Assembly (NCBI RefSeq): GCF_014279875.1
Contig: NZ_CP047952.1
Coordinates: 248,001-312,000, forward strand
Length of the DNA: 64,000 nt
Reading direction: 5' to 3'
Source: Synechococcus sp. MEDNS5
GTDB lineage: Bacteria; Cyanobacteriota; Cyanobacteriia; PCC-6307; Cyanobiaceae
Positions 30,115-46,495 of this stretch are shown here, piece after piece. The position numbers were made by a program, and so were the translations under genes. Within the stretch, counting starts at the first letter, position 1. Each line of letters starts with the position of its first letter. The notes beneath the pieces are model-generated. The model had not been told where the DNA came from, ran no database searches, and saw nothing but the letters and a program-made list of their open reading frames with translations.

Positions 30115-30426
30115 TCAGGCTGCTTCTTCTTTGCTGTTGCTTTCGTTATTCTCGATTGTGGAAATTGGCGCAATACCAGCGTTTTCAACCAATTTGTTCA
30201 AGGCAACGGTCAGGGTTTGTTGTGCTGCAGACAACTGACGCATCCGGAAACGATGCTCGTTCAATTCGGTCTCAGAGCGAATGAGGTCGTTGAGAACATT
30301 GATGGCTTCTGCTGGCAGTGCATTCATGGGATAGACGCGACCATCGAGAGTCAAGGTCTGCTGATCACTACCAGTGGATTGCTCGCTGACCGCCGTGTTG
30401 TCCTGAACGTTCTCGAAATCGCTCAT
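30115..30426 (-). CDS. Small conserved protein, DUF6447-like
   Basis: This codes for 103 aa from ATG 30426, which overlaps the stop of the upstream dioxygenase gene as ATGA, so translation is probably coupled. A longer frame from 30639 is just the other gene read in another frame. After an acidic, disordered N-terminus, the sequence LTLDGRVYPMNALPAEA is followed by a helix of about 45 residues (NVLNDLIRSETELNE, RFRMRQLSAAQQTLTVAL) and an acidic/basic tail. The short LDG-x-x-Y strand motif with one long helix resembles DUF6447-type proteins, which I recall from marine cyanobacteria and their phages. Function unknown. Confidence 0.6.
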   Translation of the reverse strand: MSDFENVQDNTAVSEQSTGSDQQTLTLDGRVYPMNALPAEAINVLNDLIRSETELNEHRFRMRQLSAAQQTLTVALNKLVENAGIAPISTIENNESNSKEEAA

Positions 30427-31280
30427 GATGGTTTTGTAGTGTCGGCCGATTGTATGGGTAATTTTGCCGATGGTAAACAACGAATCCAAGGATTGTGATG
30501 ACTGGGGACAGGATCCCCCTCTTGAAGACCTTGAAAACACGAGTGATGTAGACCGTTTCTCAGCAAATGAACTTGATCGCGTAATTGGCGTGGGGCATGG
30601 GGCATGGCAGGCGCCAGTTGCAGATGTCCTTCTCCGCATCCGTACACAGCGACAAAAGCGAGTCGGTCCTCCAGGGCCTTGTGCTCATCGCTGCCATGAA
30701 TGGTCCAACCATCGTGAAAACTGCAGTCACCAGGCTTGAGGCCAACGGTGGTGAGGTGCGTCCAGCCCCCATTGCTCCATCTGTGTTGATGTTTCACGTA
30801 ACTGGCTTTCGCGCTTCCGCCATCGAGGAACTGACAGGCGGGAGCTAGAGGTGACCAATATTCCAGGGGTGAATCTCTTTCAGTATGGATCGGACTCAGA
30901 GGAATCCAGAGAGTTAGAAATGTGCATCCTTGAACTGGGATGAACATGGCATCCTGGTGCCACGGTGTTCGTTGGCTGCCAGGTTTTTTGAAGTAGGTCT
31001 GATCCCGCAACAGCCAGATGCGATCGGTACCAAGGAGATTGGCGGCGAGTTGTGCTGGTTCTTCTTCCAGCAACCAGGTGCTGATTGTGGTTTGTTCTCT
31101 CCAGATGTTTTCCCGAAAATCCCACTGTTGGCCATAACTGCGCACACTGTCCTCGAGGCTGGTGCCGCGGCCTTGGCTCTGAGAGTCGGCGTTGTTTTTG
31201 GCGATCAAATCAGTGATCACTGCCAATTTTTGAATTGAGCAGAATTCACGCATAATCCCCTGCAAGTTTGCCGAGGTCAT
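30423..31280 (-). CDS. PhyH-family Fe(II)/2-oxoglutarate dioxygenase
   Basis: This codes for 285 aa. The start at ATG 31280 is supported by an AAGGAG box 4 nt upstream. Phytanoyl-CoA dioxygenase (PhyH) features are visible: the first metal ligands in PWHQDAMF (His108, Asp110), a strand FLTLWIPLSP, and GDCSFHDGWTIHGS with the distal metal His (His195), followed by the 2-oxoglutarate-binding Arg in EDRLAF (about 206). Such enzymes hydroxylate or otherwise oxidise a small molecule or a side chain; the substrate cannot be told from sequence. It heads an operon with the small DUF6447-like gene. Its start codon overlaps the first possible start of the divergent gene within the palindrome CATG. The toroid protein and Nif11 peptide nearby suggest a shared small pathway (inference). 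Confidence 0.8.
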   Translation of the reverse strand: MTSANLQGIMREFCSIQKLAVITDLIAKNNADSQSQGRGTSLEDSVRSYGQQWDFRENIWREQTTISTWLLEEEPAQLAANLLGTDRIWLLRDQTYFKKPGSQRTPWHQDAMFIPVQGCTFLTLWIPLSPIHTERDSPLEYWSPLAPACQFLDGGSAKASYVKHQHRWSNGGWTHLTTVGLKPGDCSFHDGWTIHGSDEHKALEDRLAFVAVYGCGEGHLQLAPAMPHAPRQLRDQVHLLRNGLHHSCFQGLQEGDPVPSHHNPWIRCLPSAKLPIQSADTTKPS

Positions 31281-31305
31281 GCCACTCCTTGATCAGGCTG
31301 CCATT

Positions 31306-33312
31306 ATGTCTGCCCAGAGTGGGATCGGCATGCGAGGGAGCTGGAGCACGTTTTGGCGCGATGGTTCAGAGCTAGCCAATCTCTTTGACACTCTCGCACC
31401 GTCTGACTTGCAACGCTCTTTTTTGGCGGGGTTGAGTCCGGTTGAGGCTCCAGCGATTGGGCTTGAGGTTTCGAGGCGAGGGATTCGTCGTAAGCCTCAA
31501 ATGGCTGTTTTGTTATTGAGTCGACGACTCTTGCGTTGGAGGGCCTTGCTTGCTCCTCTCCTTCAGGCCGATGGCAGCTTTGCTGGTGGCTTGCAACTCA
31601 CGGATCTCAGTCCTTTCTTCCAATCCCTGCATGGGGAAGACGTTTGGTTTGACCAAGCCACCTGGGTGGAGTACACCCAGCCACCTCGGCGGGGAGCAGG
31701 TCAGCCTTTTCTCCTTTTTCGGCGGACAATGCAGCCCTGGTCCGTTGCCCAGATGAAACTGCGATTAAAGCGAATCCATGTTGCATTCCCTGAAACTTTG
31801 CGGCAGCGCTTGCCGTTGCCTAGCGTCGATTGGTGGGATGCAGTTGATGCTCTGCCGATTGACGGTTTAGATCAACTTGGCGTGGACTTCAGTGTTGATT
31901 CAGGTTGTTGGCGTTTTCTGTTTGGCGTGTCAAAACCTAAAAGTTTGTGTTCGGCTTTGCGATTCCCGGATGATGTGACTCATGCCTTGCAGGGCTGCCC
32001 TATTGCATTAGCTCTTGATAGTAGACATCGTCCTGTCGATCGCTACGCCATCGAGGTCTTCCCTCGTTACCGCCAAGAACACACTGTGACTGCCTATCCA
32101 GGTGAGGTTCCCGCCGAGCCAGGTCAATGGCCAAGATGGCCTGAGAACCCAGCCTATTTGCCTCCAAAGCGTCTAGCGGCCTTGATGCGGAAAAGCGTGC
32201 ATGCTCCTGCAGTTGAGTTCGGAGTGCAGACCCTGTCTCTCCGAGGAGGCCTAAGTCATCAAAAGCTGGTTGTGGAGGCTGGTGAATTGGTCGATCACAA
32301 GGCTTATCTCGGCGTGATGGTTGCTGCTTCGAGAGCAAAATCGCATGCTTCTTATGGCGGTTCCACATCAAGCAAGAATTCGCCGGCTGTGCATCATGCA
32401 CTTGACCTTTTAGTTGAGGCAGACAGATGGACGGGGTTTGCCCTCAACCCTGGATCATCGGATCTCTGGGTTCCGTTGGCCTGCCTCACATTGTTGGCGC
32501 CTTGGCGCCAACACCCTCGCTTGCGTGGTGCCTACGCGCGTCAGTGCAAGAGCATGAAGGCAATTCTGGACGCACCGGCTCCTGTTGGCTACTGCCAAGC
32601 CACACCAGCGGATTCCGATAGTTCGCTGTGGTTGAAACGCTGCCTTGTGGCCCTAGGGCTGCCGTCATCTTCGTCTTTGGATGCTTACCTCGAGGAAGCG
32701 TGGCGTCCGCAAGTCGGCATTCGCACTTACGCAACACCTCAGGCTATAGCGGCTTACATTCAGCGGCCAACATCAGCGCTGAATGGCTGGTGCTCGCCTC
32801 ACGACTGTGTTCTAGCGAATCTCGCGGCTACCCATGAGTTGCCCGATGCCACGCAGGCGTTGGCGTTATTGCGAGGGCGATTGGAATTGAACCAATTCAA
32901 GAGCTACTGGTGGCCTTTGGATGGGTTGATGCTCAGCCTTCTCCCTAGAGGAGCTCTCCCGCGGTTTGCTGTTGAGCGCGTGATCGCTCAACAGCTCAGT
33001 CCTGCGGTTCGTGCGCAGATGCCTCCAGATCGTGCCGAGGGTTTGTTGATCTTCTCGCGTTCGTTGATGCAACTGGTGCACGGCACCTCGGAGGAGCAAC
33101 AGATTGCCTTGGCCAAGATAGATCATCTGCTCATTTCGCCGAAAAGCTTCAGCGAGCTGCTGGTGATGCAACTGCCGGATCCGGATTGCTGCGATCCCAG
33201 GGGCCAGGAGCGCTGGATCTGGTCTGGAGGAATGGAAGGGGCATTGGCACCAGAGAATCAGGGTTGTTTGGCAGCTGCTTTGCTATTAGCGGCTCAGGTG
33301 CGTTCTAGGTAA
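31306..33312 (+). CDS. Uncharacterised protein; C-terminal half resembles a terpenoid-cyclase-like alpha/alpha toroid
   Basis: This codes for 668 aa from ATG 31306 (an AGG lies 8 nt upstream). ATG 31279 would add nine residues but has poor spacing and overlaps the divergent start. No signal peptide or membrane segment is seen. The N-terminal half (with GLDQLGVDFSVDSGCWRFLF and DRYAIEVFPRYR) is unfamiliar. From about residue 360 the protein has helix-pair repeats with WVPLACLTLLA, then GYCQATPADSDSSLWLKRCL, a segment VGIRTYATPQAIAAYI, GWCSPHDCVLANLAA, and a terminal GCLAAALLLAA. This is the order and spacing typical of squalene-cyclase/prenyltransferase-like toroids attached to natural-product genes. 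The DxDD catalytic motif of squalene-hopene cyclases is not evident, so catalysis as a cyclase is doubtful. Its 3' end overlaps the convergent Nif11 gene by 19 nt. Confidence 0.5.
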   Translation: MSAQSGIGMRGSWSTFWRDGSELANLFDTLAPSDLQRSFLAGLSPVEAPAIGLEVSRRGIRRKPQMAVLLLSRRLLRWRALLAPLLQADGSFAGGLQLTDLSPFFQSLHGEDVWFDQATWVEYTQPPRRGAGQPFLLFRRTMQPWSVAQMKLRLKRIHVAFPETLRQRLPLPSVDWWDAVDALPIDGLDQLGVDFSVDSGCWRFLFGVSKPKSLCSALRFPDDVTHALQGCPIALALDSRHRPVDRYAIEVFPRYRQEHTVTAYPGEVPAEPGQWPRWPENPAYLPPKRLAALMRKSVHAPAVEFGVQTLSLRGGLSHQKLVVEAGELVDHKAYLGVMVAASRAKSHASYGGSTSSKNSPAVHHALDLLVEADRWTGFALNPGSSDLWVPLACLTLLAPWRQHPRLRGAYARQCKSMKAILDAPAPVGYCQATPADSDSSLWLKRCLVALGLPSSSSLDAYLEEAWRPQVGIRTYATPQAIAAYIQRPTSALNGWCSPHDCVLANLAATHELPDATQALALLRGRLELNQFKSYWWPLDGLMLSLLPRGALPRFAVERVIAQQLSPAVRAQMPPDRAEGLLIFSRSLMQLVHGTSEEQQIALAKIDHLLISPKSFSELLVMQLPDPDCCDPRGQERWIWSGGMEGALAPENQGCLAAALLLAAQVRSR

Positions 33313-33557
33313 GCCTGAAAGTCATTCATATCGAATAGGTCGTCAAGCCCTCCTTCCACCAAGAGATCGAGCTCGTCGTCGCTCATGGCCATGATTTGCT
33401 CAGCCTGAGCTCTGAGAAGATCTGCAGCTCTCACTTGGAATCCTTGCTGTTCGGCTAGCTTTAAAATTCCAAGCAGGTCGAGCTGACTGAGCTGCTCTTG
33501 AAGATTGGGATCCTGCTCAACTTTGGCAAGGAATGATTGAAGATCCTTAACGGCCAC
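33294..33557 (-). CDS. Nif11-like leader peptide (possible RiPP precursor)
   Basis: This codes for 87 aa from GTG 33557, with no obvious ribosome-binding site. It follows the Nif11 leader plan: DLQSFLAKVEQDPNLQEQL at the start, a second helix with LAEQQGF, then SDDELDLLVEGG, which ends in a Gly-Gly (69-70) as in Nif11/prochlorosin leaders. The 17-residue tail after GG is acidic and aromatic (LDDLFDMNDFQAYLERT), with no Cys and only a terminal Thr. It therefore cannot be a lanthionine core of the prochlorosin kind. It may be a core modified in another way (for example by the nearby dioxygenase), or a stand-alone Nif11 protein with no product. It lies antisense to and overlaps the 3' end of the toroid gene, and is divergent from the glycosyltransferase. 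Confidence 0.7.
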   Translation of the reverse strand: MAVKDLQSFLAKVEQDPNLQEQLSQLDLLGILKLAEQQGFQVRAADLLRAQAEQIMAMSDDELDLLVEGGLDDLFDMNDFQAYLERT

Positions 33558-33642: not shown

Positions 33643-34659
33643 GTGCATATCCATTTTCTGATTCCTTGCTATGGCGGTCAGATTTCGGAAGCTACCTTCA
33701 CGAGTTTTGTCCGTTTTATCGCACGTGCACCCCAATGGGGCTTGGAGTGGAGCTTGGACACCTTGGTGAACGAAAGCCTGATCCCTCGAGGACGTAATGC
33801 ATTGGTGGCACGGGCAATGCATAACCCCCGTGCCACTCATTTAATGTTCCTAGATGCAGATATAGGTTTTGATCCGGAATATATCCTGATGCTTCTGCAA
33901 GAGGATGTGGATGTGATTGGTGGTGGTTATCCAAAGAAAAGCTTGCCCATCGACTATGTGATCAACCCAATTGTTGGTGGGATTGCTGATGACGTGAAGG
34001 CTGAAGTTGAGCGTATTGGGACCGGGTTTTTGCTGCTGAAAAAAAATGTATTCTCGCGAATGGCGAAAGCGATGCCGGAGTTGAAGTATATCGATGACTG
34101 CGGGTTAGACCCTTCCATTAATCAACATCTCTATGCCTTTTTCGAATGCGGGCTATTTGGAGAGAAAGTATTTATGAGTGAAGACTGGCTTTTTTGTAAT
34201 CGTTGGCGATCCCTTGGCGGAAAAATCTTTATTTCCAAGCGTTTCGCCCTCACTCACATAGGGTCATATGCCTTCTCAGAGGCTGCCCAAGCTTCGCTTC
34301 TAGCCCGTCTTAGCGCGCAGCTTACGGCTCCAGCTGCAGCGGCTTCCACTTCTCCACTGAGTGCGCCTTCCGCTTCAACATCCAGTTCGACCGAAGGCTC
34401 AGCATCGGTCACTCAAGCAAGCGCTACACATGATGCTCCAGCAAAGGTTGCTTCGAAGGCAAAGGCTGCTTCGAAGGCAAAGGCTGCTCCCAAGACGAAG
34501 GCTGCTCCCAAGACGAAGGCTGCTCCCAAGACGAAGGCTGCTCCCAAGACGAAGGCTGCTCCCAAGACGACAGCCAAGCCAGCTGCTAATGAGCAATCAG
34601 CCTCGAAGCCCACGCGCGCTTCTCGCCGTAAGCCGAAAGACAGCTCACCGGCAAACTGA
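33643..34659 (+). CDS. GT-A type glycosyltransferase with a Lys/Ala/Pro repeat tail
   Basis: This codes for 338 aa from GTG 33643. The catalytic part (residues 1-220) starts with the strand HIHFLIPCYGG, has SLIPRGRNALVARAM, the metal-binding LMFLDADIGFD (DAD at about 70-72), VIGGGYPKK and a C-terminal FMSEDWLFCNRW acceptor-side motif, as in small GT-A enzymes common in marine cyanobacteria and cyanophages. From about residue 222 the sequence becomes Ala/Ser/Thr/Pro-rich, then strongly basic with hexapeptide repeats KAAPKT (residues 268-309), resembling histone H1 tails. No membrane segment is seen. The next gene is hisS, 21 nt downstream. The sugar donor is unknown. Confidence 0.75.
   Translation: MHIHFLIPCYGGQISEATFTSFVRFIARAPQWGLEWSLDTLVNESLIPRGRNALVARAMHNPRATHLMFLDADIGFDPEYILMLLQEDVDVIGGGYPKKSLPIDYVINPIVGGIADDVKAEVERIGTGFLLLKKNVFSRMAKAMPELKYIDDCGLDPSINQHLYAFFECGLFGEKVFMSEDWLFCNRWRSLGGKIFISKRFALTHIGSYAFSEAAQASLLARLSAQLTAPAAAASTSPLSAPSASTSSSTEGSASVTQASATHDAPAKVASKAKAASKAKAAPKTKAAPKTKAAPKTKAAPKTKAAPKTTAKPAANEQSASKPTRASRRKPKDSSPAN
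34444..34569 (+). repeat. Seven 18-bp coding repeats (K-A-A-P-K-T type)
   Basis: Five identical copies of AAGGCTGCTCCCAAGACG at 34480-34569 are preceded by two variant copies at 34444-34479 ending in TCGAAGGCA. They encode a Lys/Ala/Pro-rich tail of the glycosyltransferase. Base-perfect copies suggest recent slippage and likely length variation between strains. Confidence 0.9.
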
Positions 34660-44145: not shown

Positions 44146-45590
44146 TGAGCCGCTTGCTGGGACGCTGATCCCTGAACATCTTTTTTGTGTTTTCGGTAGA
44201 AGCGCATCACAGCCAGTGCCAGGGAACGTGGATCGTGTCGCAGGGTGGCCGTGGGTCTGCTGCCCTGAAGTGGGGCCTCCATCACGTCGTACCCCTCGAC
44301 GATCAACTGCCGACGGTTGCAGACAACCGGTTCAGCACCTCTGGATCGGTAGTGAGCGATCAAAGGAGAATCCGCGATCGCTTCCTGGGCCAGCACTGCG
44401 TCGAACAGCCGCTGATTGATGCCGAGAGAGGCCAACTGCGCTTCGATCGCCCGCAGATGGCCGCTCACATCGAGCCCATCGGTTTCACCGGGCTGGGTCA
44501 TCAGATTGCAGATGTAAAGCCTTGGAGCACGGCTGCGTTGAATCGCTGTGACCAGTTCGGGCACCAGCAGATTCGGAAGCAGTGAGGTGTACAGGCTCCC
44601 TGGTCCCAGCAGGATCAGATCTGCCTGGGAAATGGCCTCCAGAGCTCTCGGGAGAGCCGGTGGTCGCTCCGGCAAACAGCCCAGACGCACAATCGGGCTC
44701 GGCGCTTTGCCGATGGCGGATTCCCCCTCGATCCGGCGCCCGTCCTCCAGTTCTGCCCACAGCCGTACATCGGCATTGGTGGCCGGTACCACCTGGCCCT
44801 GTACGGCCAGCACGCGGCTCGAGGCGGTGATGGCCGTTTCGAGATTGCCTGTAATCGCTGTCAGTGCCGAGAGAAAGAGGTTGCCGAAGCTGTGGCCTTC
44901 CAGTCCTGTTCCCGAGGAGAAGCGGTACTGAAACAGGCGCGTTAACAGCGGCTCTTCGGTGGAAAGGGCAGCCAGACAATTGCGGATGTCGCCCGGTGGT
45001 TGAACCCCAAGTTCGCGGCGCAGCACGCCGCTGCTGCCTCCGTCGTCGGCCACCGTGACAATGGCGGTGATATGGCTGCTGTAGCGCTTCAAACCACTGA
45101 GCAGGGTGGACAAACCGGTGCCACCGCCGATGGCCACGATGTTCGGTCCGCGGTTCAGCCGGCTCTTGGCGCGTAGAGCATCCACCAGAACGGTGTCTTT
45201 TTCAGGAGCAAGAGCCTGTTGGATCGACCCGAAGCTGCGGCTTTGGCCCCAGAGAAGTAGACCGATCCCCAAGAGCAACAGGAGAGGACCCGTGAATCCA
45301 CGGGGCATTACCCGTGTGATCCAGCCAAGGGCTTCCTGGATGGCCCAGAGAGTCCAGTAAATCGGCTGCAGGTCGGCCCACACGGCTGCGCCGAGCAGAG
45401 CCAGCACCAGTCCGATGCCTGAGGTGAGCAGCCAGCGCTTCACCACCAGTCCGGGCTGCAGCCAGCGCATGGCTCTCCGGGAGCGCAGCATCAGATCGCG
45501 CTGCCGCTGCGCCTGCATCGCGCGGATGCGTTGACGGTTTCCGCGGCGTGGAGGACTGGTCAAGTGCGATCCGAAGCGAGGGGTTCGCAT
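44142..45590 (-). CDS. YvcK/CofD-like protein (gluconeogenesis factor family)
   Basis: This codes for about 482 aa from ATG 45590; a TTG at 45599 adds three residues. A basic N-terminus is followed by two membrane segments ([19 protein letters not shown] and [14 protein letters not shown]). The cytosolic YvcK domain follows, with [57 protein letters not shown] and [15 protein letters not shown]. In other bacteria YvcK binds UDP-sugars and affects cell shape and carbon metabolism; the membrane-anchored form is seen in cyanobacteria and Actinobacteria-like relatives. Convergent to ndhJ and divergent from the ABC ATPase gene. Confidence 0.9.
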
Positions 45591-45658
45591 CCCTTGCAAT
45601 CAGCAAACTCTACGGAAGCTGGCCCCAATGGCCATCCCCCAATGCCAAACGCGGCAGG

Positions 45659-46495
45659 ATGGTGCAACTTGCCACGCGGCCCCTGATGAGCCGGCCGAGC
45701 TCAACCCCAGCATCAACCCAGACGCCCGTGGTGGAGTTGCGCGACCTCACCATGCAATGGGGCCCCCGGCCCGTGCTCGATCGTGTGTCGCTCACCATGA
45801 AACCGGGCGAGCGGATTGCTGTTGTCGGTCCCTCCGGTGCCGGTAAATCCACGGTGTTGCGTCTACTAGCCGGTCTGCAGTTGCCAACGGGTGGTGAACT
45901 GCGCCTCTTCGGTGAACCGCAGACCTACCTGCGTCTCGACCAGCGCCGCCCCCCGGATGTGCGACTGGTGTTTCAGAACCCTGCTCTGCTGGCGTCTCTC
46001 ACGGTGGAGGAGAACGTTGGTTTTTTGCTGACACGCCTGGGACGCCTCAATCCAGCCCAGATCAGAGAGCGGGTGCAGCAGTGCCTGGAAGCTGTCGGGC
46101 TTCATGAAGTGGCCGACAAGTACCCAGGACAGTTGAGTGGCGGCATGCAGAAACGGGTGAGCTTCGCCCGGGCCCTGATCGATGATCCTGACCGGGAGGA
46201 GGGGGCCATGCCCCTGCTTCTCTACGACGAGCCCACCGCCGGCCTGGATCCGGTGGCCTCCACACGGATTGAAGATCTGATCGTGAAAACCACCACCGTG
46301 GCCCGTGGCTGTTCGGTGGTGGTGAGTCACGTGCACAGCACGATTGAGCGCTCAGCGGAACGGATCGTGATGCTGTATGGCGGGCGCTTCCAGTGGGATG
46401 GAACCGTTGAGGAATACCGCAATTCAGACAATCCTTACGTCGTTCAGTTCAGGACGGGTAATCTGCGCGGACCGATGCAACCCTCCGACCACTAA
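45659..46495 (+). CDS. MlaF-like ABC transporter ATPase (lipid transport)
   Basis: This codes for 278 aa from ATG 45659. Other in-frame starts (45686, or upstream to 45548 inside the divergent gene) are possible and none has a good ribosome-binding site. ABC motifs: Walker A VVGPSGAGKSTVLR, Q-loop LVFQNPAL, signature LSGGMQKRVSFARAL, Walker B LLLYDEPTAGLDP, H-loop VVSHVHS. The ABC family's closest matches are MlaF/TGD3-type ATPases, which power phospholipid movement between the membranes. The next gene encodes the MCE (MlaD/TGD2) partner, 3 nt downstream. No permease (MlaE) gene is in the window. Confidence 0.88.
   Translation: MVQLATRPLMSRPSSTPASTQTPVVELRDLTMQWGPRPVLDRVSLTMKPGERIAVVGPSGAGKSTVLRLLAGLQLPTGGELRLFGEPQTYLRLDQRRPPDVRLVFQNPALLASLTVEENVGFLLTRLGRLNPAQIRERVQQCLEAVGLHEVADKYPGQLSGGMQKRVSFARALIDDPDREEGAMPLLLYDEPTAGLDPVASTRIEDLIVKTTTVARGCSVVVSHVHSTIERSAERIVMLYGGRFQWDGTVEEYRNSDNPYVVQFRTGNLRGPMQPSDH

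Follow-up and report, generated by a model that had tools for sequence, protein, structure and literature searches.

The 64-kb stretch of DNA analysed here, termed the window, belongs to the genome of Synechococcus sp. MEDNS5 (G000, a single contig of 2,435,869 bases). Four open reading frames (ORFs) within 3.4 kb of it (positions 30115-33557), designated P0001 to P0004, probably form a minimal ribosomal-peptide isoprenylation pathway, a reading in which we place moderate confidence. The fused enzyme P0003 would prenylate a leader-bearing substrate and cyclise the attached chain, and the dioxygenase P0002 would then oxidise the result. The locus is a candidate for an enzyme type already published as NctPC, in an unusually reduced form with no LanM detected nearby and a Trp-free candidate substrate. 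This proposal is built on observed domain homologies, conserved motifs, synteny and the co-occurrence of homologous enzymes with Nif11 or NHLP precursors.

P0001 (103 residues, 30115..30426) and P0002 (285 residues, 30423..31280) are a minus-strand pair that overlaps by 4 nucleotides at the P0002 stop. P0003 (668 residues, 31306..33312, plus strand), a putative prenyltransferase-terpene cyclase fusion according to its profile alignment with distant fusions, is encoded divergently from P0002. P0004 (87 residues, 33294..33557, minus strand) is a Nif11-leader protein and the candidate substrate. Its gene overlaps that of P0003 tail to tail by 19 nucleotides (33294..33312), and this overlap is identical in length in all six genomes (G000, G437, G477, G484, G490 and G501) that carry the set among the 31 genus genomes sampled. 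The P0003 ORFs of G484 and G490 offer no start upstream of the Met equivalent to 31330, so the real start may lie there. All four ORFs were found at the positions given in an earlier note on this sequence, which had described four genes within 3.4 kb.

Judged by its homologous toroid and its D-x-D motif, the C-terminal half of P0003 (C domain, 32383..33312) belongs with the MstE-like class II terpene cyclases, of the monodomain alpha/alpha toroid type. The full-length sequence has no Pfam match. With phmmer, P0003 matches MstE over residues 383-537 (E=1.8e-5), and a profile of the six marine C domains, run against PDB sequences, retrieves a 'prenylcyclase' (6ij1, E=1.7e-11) and MstE (E=1.3e-7), bearing out the terpenoid-cyclase toroid that the earlier note had seen in this half. 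A profile comparison with a stand-alone cyclase at locus L028 of a distant cyanobacterium (G214) gives E=1.4e-14; measured against MstE, the C domain of P0003 scores 34 bits and the L028 cyclase 263.5 bits. Aligned with these relatives, the DSDSS sequence at 32611..32625 is the counterpart of the class II acid motif, which reads DxDSS in the marine proteins and DADTT or DADST in the relatives. Both of its Asp residues are invariant across the six marine orthologues.

The N-terminal half (P domain, 31330..32322) is most likely an ABBA prenyltransferase, probably of the aromatic type, as indicated by invariant alignment columns and by the secondary structure and fold matches of a predicted model. 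It resembles a 358-residue protein that adjoins the MstE-like cyclase at L028. An alignment of ten rows, drawn from marine loci A and B and from distant relatives, has twelve invariant columns, among them the Glu of a WLE(F/Y) motif, an Arg, a second Glu, HxK and KxY. By this comparison within the family, the invariant Arg, Lys and Tyr positions are candidates for the diphosphate-binding residues of ABBA prenyltransferases. An AlphaFold2 (AF2) model of this half, computed from three sequences, was submitted to two fold searches. Among the 50 matches shown, Foldseek places aromatic ABBA prenyltransferases at every rank from 1 to 43, the best being AmbP3 (E=3.8e-4, template-modelling score 0.33), and the 50 rows shown by VIA-align are aromatic prenyltransferases throughout (best Z 8.3). 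A Z near 8 would be weak by itself; what convinces us is how uniform the lists are. The three-row AF2 model of full-length P0003 had a predicted local distance difference test score (pLDDT) of 42.4 and was excluded from the fold search, and a profile of the distant prenyltransferase family retrieved nothing meaningful from PDB sequences. Because the N-terminal half is most likely a prenyltransferase, isoprenoid attachment and cyclisation would be the central chemistry of the locus. The earlier note had missed this domain and had offered hydroxylation of side chains as its example, which by itself would not be the main reaction.

Relatives of both domains occur together in distant cyanobacteria. 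A survey of 388 genomes of the order of G214 yielded seven with an MstE-like match at E <= 1e-10. Two of the loci encode two-domain fusions of 707 and 730 residues (L131 in G776 and L133 in G663), and a global profile alignment of the P0003 family with these fusions and the joined L028 pair extends over 619 columns (prob 99.9, E=2.4e-31), with the C half contributing most of the score. Both fusion loci hold NHLP precursors (TIGR03793 128.7 and 77.9 bits, cut-off 50.9), a PhyH, the fusion, a LanM and an exporter that carries a C39 peptidase. At L028, the prenyltransferase and the cyclase are separate and are accompanied by two PhyH, a LanM and an NHLP-like precursor. L128 resembles L028, with no LanM noticed and with a prenyltransferase frame split around an ORF that has no Pfam match. 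The precursors of L028 (41.4 bits) and L128 (39.5-40.0 bits) score below the TIGR03793 cut-off. A precursor stands beside prenyltransferase and cyclase at four of four distant loci; our own NHLP profile was built from sequences of these four, so its matches there follow by construction and the NHLP assignment depends on TIGR03793.

Matches to the 358-residue prenyltransferase were found in 14 of 386 genomes of the phylum, G214 included. A Nif11 or NHLP ORF is present in 10 of the 14 windows around prenyltransferases without a cyclase (13 genomes), versus 0 of 20 control windows. The controls were placed by us, two per genome, in nine of these 13 genomes and in G214, and the Nif11 profile of this survey combined P0004 with 19 ORFs taken from other genomes of the genus. 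Two of the small frames, the precursor at L103 and the ORF at 1525-1758 of L133, appear truncated. PhyH accompanies prenyltransferase plus cyclase at all four distant loci and all six marine loci (that of G501 having been found by its PhyH), and at none of the 14 prenyltransferase-only windows. Two of the latter encode a prenyltransferase with a C-terminal 2-oxoglutarate (2OG)-Fe(II) oxygenase domain unlike PhyH (L093, 7558-9267, by Pfam; L094, 8012-9781, by alignment), and six Nif11 precursors, all ending Lys-Trp, lie beside each.

The genus itself contains a second prenyltransferase of the same family, accompanied by a PhyH, at what we call locus B, which is present in five of the 31 genomes and not in G000 (L029 5453-7705, L030 3358-5616, L031 5565-8017, L134 5996-8137 and L135 5385-7837). 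A neighbouring protein exceeds the cut-off of the WelO5 halogenase family in all four loci tested (L029, L030, L031 and L134), and no Nif11 or NHLP ORF was detected in the locus B windows. Locus B is a candidate for a separate prenylation/halogenation system.

Conservation within the genus ties the four genes of the window to one another. Orthologues of P0002 (62-64% identity), P0001 (58-71%) and P0004 (72-83%, the highest conservation of the four) occur in the same six of the 31 genomes, and no close orthologue of these three was found in the remaining 25. P0003 relatives with 53-55% identity are present in all six. The direct search for P0003 covered ten of the 31 genomes, five with and five without it; G501 was detected through P0002, and its P0003 was read beside that match. 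Gene order and arrangement are identical in all six genomes. Weaker homologues are commoner, with some match to P0001 in 23 and to P0004 in 21 of the 31 genomes. The six occurrences are not independent events, since the P0003 proteins of G484 and G490 share 594 of 642 residues. The co-occurrence of the four genes is more than chance. A search of genome contigs with the marine P0003 alignment matched only Synechococcus sp. UW105 and UW140, P0003 as a single query matched no genome contig and no plasmid, and P0001 had no tblastn match in phages. The conserved gene neighbourhood that the earlier note had named as a check is present, and the association of homologous enzymes with Nif11/NHLP precursors elsewhere agrees with the RiPP-like setting it proposed (RiPP, ribosomally synthesised and post-translationally modified peptide).

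P0002, a PhyH-type Fe(II)/2-oxoglutarate dioxygenase, scores 37.6 bits against Pfam PhyH (cut-off 22), and its nearest solved structure by sequence is MysH (E=1.2e-6). The HxD...H triad and a downstream Arg, which we take to be the usual 2OG ligand, are invariant in an eight-row alignment. P0001 is a small DUF6447-like protein by a sub-threshold match (24.2 bits, Pfam cut-off 27), and the literature searched yielded no mention of this family. DUF6447-like paralogues at L059, L062, L063, L064 and L068 lie between transporter-like and ABC-transporter-like genes as read by eye, unlike P0001.

P0004 exceeds the cut-offs of both Nif11 (34.4 bits, cut-off 23.8) and TIGR03798 (42 bits, cut-off 32.3). 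Its Gly-Gly occupies residues 69-70 and is followed by a 17-residue tail (33297..33347) with a single Tyr, Tyr83, and neither Cys nor Trp; Cys is absent from the whole protein. The Fe/2-oxoglutarate dioxygenase and the Nif11 leader with Gly-Gly and a Cys-free tail were thus both correctly recognised beforehand. In this genus a Nif11 domain says little by itself, because G000 has 15 TIGR03798 matches at E <= 0.1, ten of them over the cut-off, and several of these lack a Gly-Gly leader end. In G484, where 14 ORFs were read out of 15 Nif11 matches, the P0004 orthologue is the sole one with Gly-Gly at the usual leader end plus a tail (by eye). Counts of synonymous and non-synonymous codon pairs in P0004 are 385 and 200 for the leader, 47 and 26 for residues 71-81, and 34 and 14 for residues 82-87.

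Two other kinds of Nif11 protein drew our attention. G000 has, near 1866665 and 1867023 (L170, L166), a tandem pair of Nif11 precursors whose tails end in GSGW. A conserved Nif11 protein of G000 (L160), G484 (L159) and G499 (L043), 76-93% identical, has two Trp in its C-terminal part, after an Ala-Gly, and no Gly-Gly; it exemplifies the Nif11 proteins of the genus whose sequences do not look like RiPP precursors.

Taken together, these features would fit the following scheme. The ABBA domain of P0003 would take a long prenyl group (by analogy C15-C20) from the corresponding diphosphate and attach it to a nucleophilic side chain of a ribosomal substrate that carries a leader. This recipient would most likely be P0004, and within it most likely Tyr83 of the tail, which is our best acceptor candidate. 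The MstE-like domain would then protonate the attached chain through its DxDSS motif and cyclise it, and P0002 would hydroxylate or otherwise oxidise the cyclised terpenoid. P0001 would be accessory. The presumed order of steps would end with a terpenoid-bearing peptide, its leader presumably removed. P0003 and P0004 would be a candidate minimal enzyme-substrate pair. An acceptor other than Trp has precedent in the family only at the level of gene neighbourhood: at three prenyltransferase-only loci (L092, L095, L097), eight of nine precursor ORFs have tails with Tyr and no Trp, and the ninth has neither.

A number of observations weigh against this scheme. By sequence alone, the match of the marine N domain to the distant family is weak (hhalign prob 53, E=1.4e-4, 145 columns), and the predicted model of the P domain has low confidence scores (pLDDT 55.5, predicted template-modelling score 0.56). 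The marine P domain, very divergent and on a long branch, clusters with the locus B prenyltransferases rather than with the distant fusions (FastTree support 0.942), so that the marine fusion may have arisen independently or the tree may be distorted by long branches; with such branches, the trees serve as leads only. Three of the distant cyclase loci (L129, L130, L132) showed no detectable prenyltransferase, PhyH or precursor. Nor does PhyH go with the cyclase only, since locus B pairs prenyltransferase and PhyH without a cyclase in five genomes. In agreement with the earlier note, no LanM was found: a LanM profile had no match in the window or in five related loci of ~20 kb, the regions covered, the search not extending to cyclodehydratases. 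No full C39 exporter lies nearby, the exporter profile matching only a 315-residue ABC-type ORF at 45548-46495. Elsewhere in the genomes, G484 has no C39 match and the other five set-bearing genomes have at least one each, the single match of G000 being at 1851326.

The candidate substrate raises its own difficulties. P0004 is convergent with P0003. It and its five orthologues contain no Trp. This residue serves as acceptor in the characterised fusions and occurs in at least one precursor tail at all four distant loci with prenyltransferase plus cyclase. It follows that the acceptor differs from that of the characterised fusions or that the substrate is encoded elsewhere. Invariant residues make up 11 of 17 positions in the tail and 44 of 69 in the leader, so that the two are equally conserved, whereas typical RiPP cores are variable; the last residues of the tail are constrained by the gene overlap. 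Tyr83 is invariant in the six genomes, but its codon faces the stop of P0003, which is TAA or TAG in each of them, and its invariance is confounded by this overlap, the register of which permits only Tyr, His, Gln or a stop.

Beside the cluster, a giant Gly-rich autotransporter gene occupies 1227-29839 on the minus strand, in frames of 8532 and 1005 residues, and ends in a Pfam autotransporter domain (128.3 bits, cut-off 26). Near 27 kb it changes frame; the downstream frame is open to 27158, and the 1005-residue frame loses the repeat at its end. The frame change may reflect an error in the sequence; otherwise the giant adhesin is broken. By eye, a long low-complexity region adjoins the cluster in all six marine genomes. 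A Tic22-like ORF of 251-257 residues (9266-10039 in L023, and equivalents in L024-L026) is placed between that region and P0001 in these four loci and not in the window; the assignment is weak and was tested for L023 only (E=3.3e-4). On the side away from the autotransporter, glycosyltransferase-like genes (by eye) flank the cluster. One such gene of the window, on the plus strand at 33643-34659, encodes a product with a long Ala/Lys/Pro-rich tandem tail and no Pfam match above cut-off, and its adjacency to the cluster is kept in relatives.

Other explanations of the locus share part of this evidence. P0003 might attach and cyclise its isoprenoid on Tyr83 of a Nif11 protein that stays whole, so that the result would be a cellular protein anchored in the membrane and not a peptide for secretion. 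Such a lipidation would agree with the conserved tail and with the lack of any C39 match in G484, but we regard it as unlikely; if true, it would represent a branch of the fusion enzymes with a new acceptor and no macrocycle. Alternatively, P0003 could be a ribosomal-peptide prenyltransferase-cyclase acting on a substrate encoded elsewhere, such as the GSGW pair at ~1,866,665 and 1,867,023 of G000, with P0004 as helper or regulator. The C-terminal Trp of that pair, the two-Trp protein shared by G000 and G484 and the use of Trp by the characterised fusions all speak for this, as do the prenyltransferase-only relatives at L091, L093 and L094, which adjoin Nif11 precursors ending Lys-Trp. However, none of the 14 Nif11 ORFs read in G484 combines Gly-Gly with a Trp tail, the two-Trp protein is also present at 93% identity in G499, which has no PhyH of the set, and so does not track the system, and P0004 is kept with the set in six of six genomes. 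A distant substrate seems rather improbable to us on balance.

We likewise consider it improbable that the locus encodes a meroterpenoid pathway whose substrate is a small aromatic compound, with the adjacent Nif11 gene incidental. MstE, the best characterised relative of the C domain, reportedly acts on a prenylated small molecule in merosterol formation; the nearest ABBA folds (such as AmbP1/3, FAMD1, CloQ and NphB) are those of enzymes that use small molecules, and the cyclase relatives at L129, L130 and L132 have no nearby precursor. The NHLP precursors at all four distant loci with both domains and the enrichment of precursors around prenyltransferases over control windows argue in the other direction. 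It is highly improbable that the dioxygenase and cyclase act on the giant autotransporter or on a surface glycan instead of a peptide. The low-complexity region and the glycosyltransferase-like genes on either flank would suit this idea, but no such neighbour was noticed by eye at the distant loci, and a prenyltransferase-cyclase would have no evident role there. Equally remote, in our opinion, is the idea that the locus is what remains of a lanthipeptide cluster, decayed or put to another use and without activity in prenyl transfer. The missing LanM, the lack of Cys and Trp in P0004 and the divergence of the P domain hint at decay; the frames are nevertheless intact, P0003 retains its identity and its shared positions across the six genomes, and synonymous differences exceed non-synonymous ones in P0004.

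Isoprenylation of a leader-bearing peptide by P0003 remains our preferred explanation, and it can be placed among known systems. The titles and abstract beginnings searched, a scope that leaves supplements and subscription papers beyond reach, include none describing this system; general background is given in PMC10853753 and PMC11002830. PMC10783134 describes, as cluster 1 of the marine Synechococcus Nif11 clusters, a Nif11 precursor that adjoins a 'conserved terpene synthetase'; its text says no more about that gene, and the cluster may or may not be the present locus. P0004 shares with the prochlorosins a Nif11 leader with Gly-Gly and a marine picocyanobacterial host, and differs from them in its Cys-free, conserved rather than variable tail and in the lack of a LanM nearby. 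With no LanM match in the window and five marine loci and no Cys in P0004, the locus does not resemble a class II lanthipeptide system.

MstE (PDB 6sbb-6sbg) is a monodomain terpene cyclase according to a title cited in PMC13290415; the C domain of P0003 is homologous to it by profile and keeps both acid-motif Asp residues, but is fused to a P domain. As in the MppC/MppE system, a candidate ABBA prenyltransferase is paired with a Nif11-leader peptide. According to PMC12715784, prenylation by the ABBA prenyltransferase MppC requires the Nif11 leader; unlike what we propose for P0003, MppC works on a LanM-macrocyclised core with Trp, and the word 'cyclase' is absent from the main text of that paper.

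The closest likeness is to NctPC. As outlined in PMC13290415, NctPC combines an ABBA prenyltransferase domain with an MstE-like cyclase domain, transfers a C20 chain to Trp and then cyclises it, and NctPC and ChrPC are two prenyltransferase-cyclase fusions for ribosomal peptides, both acting on Trp. Maturases of this type are attributed to Hubrich et al. 2024, as cited in PMC13290415 and PMC12715784. P0003 would have the same ABBA-MstE domain arrangement, with its P-domain fold predicted from a low-confidence model, and a RiPP-type leader protein, P0004, lies adjacent as candidate substrate. In contrast to that type, the host is a marine picocyanobacterium, P0004 lacks Trp and Cys, no LanM was found nearby, a PhyH and DUF6447-like gene pair are the partners, and the marine P domain branches apart from the distant fusions; the likeness to NctPC itself follows its published description, not its sequence. 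The 'undescribed small pathway' of the earlier note therefore overstates the case for the enzyme type, which is published as NctPC and ChrPC. If our reading is correct, this compact four-gene version would add a new acceptor to the chemistry of the NctPC-type fusions and bring that chemistry to phototrophs of the ocean.

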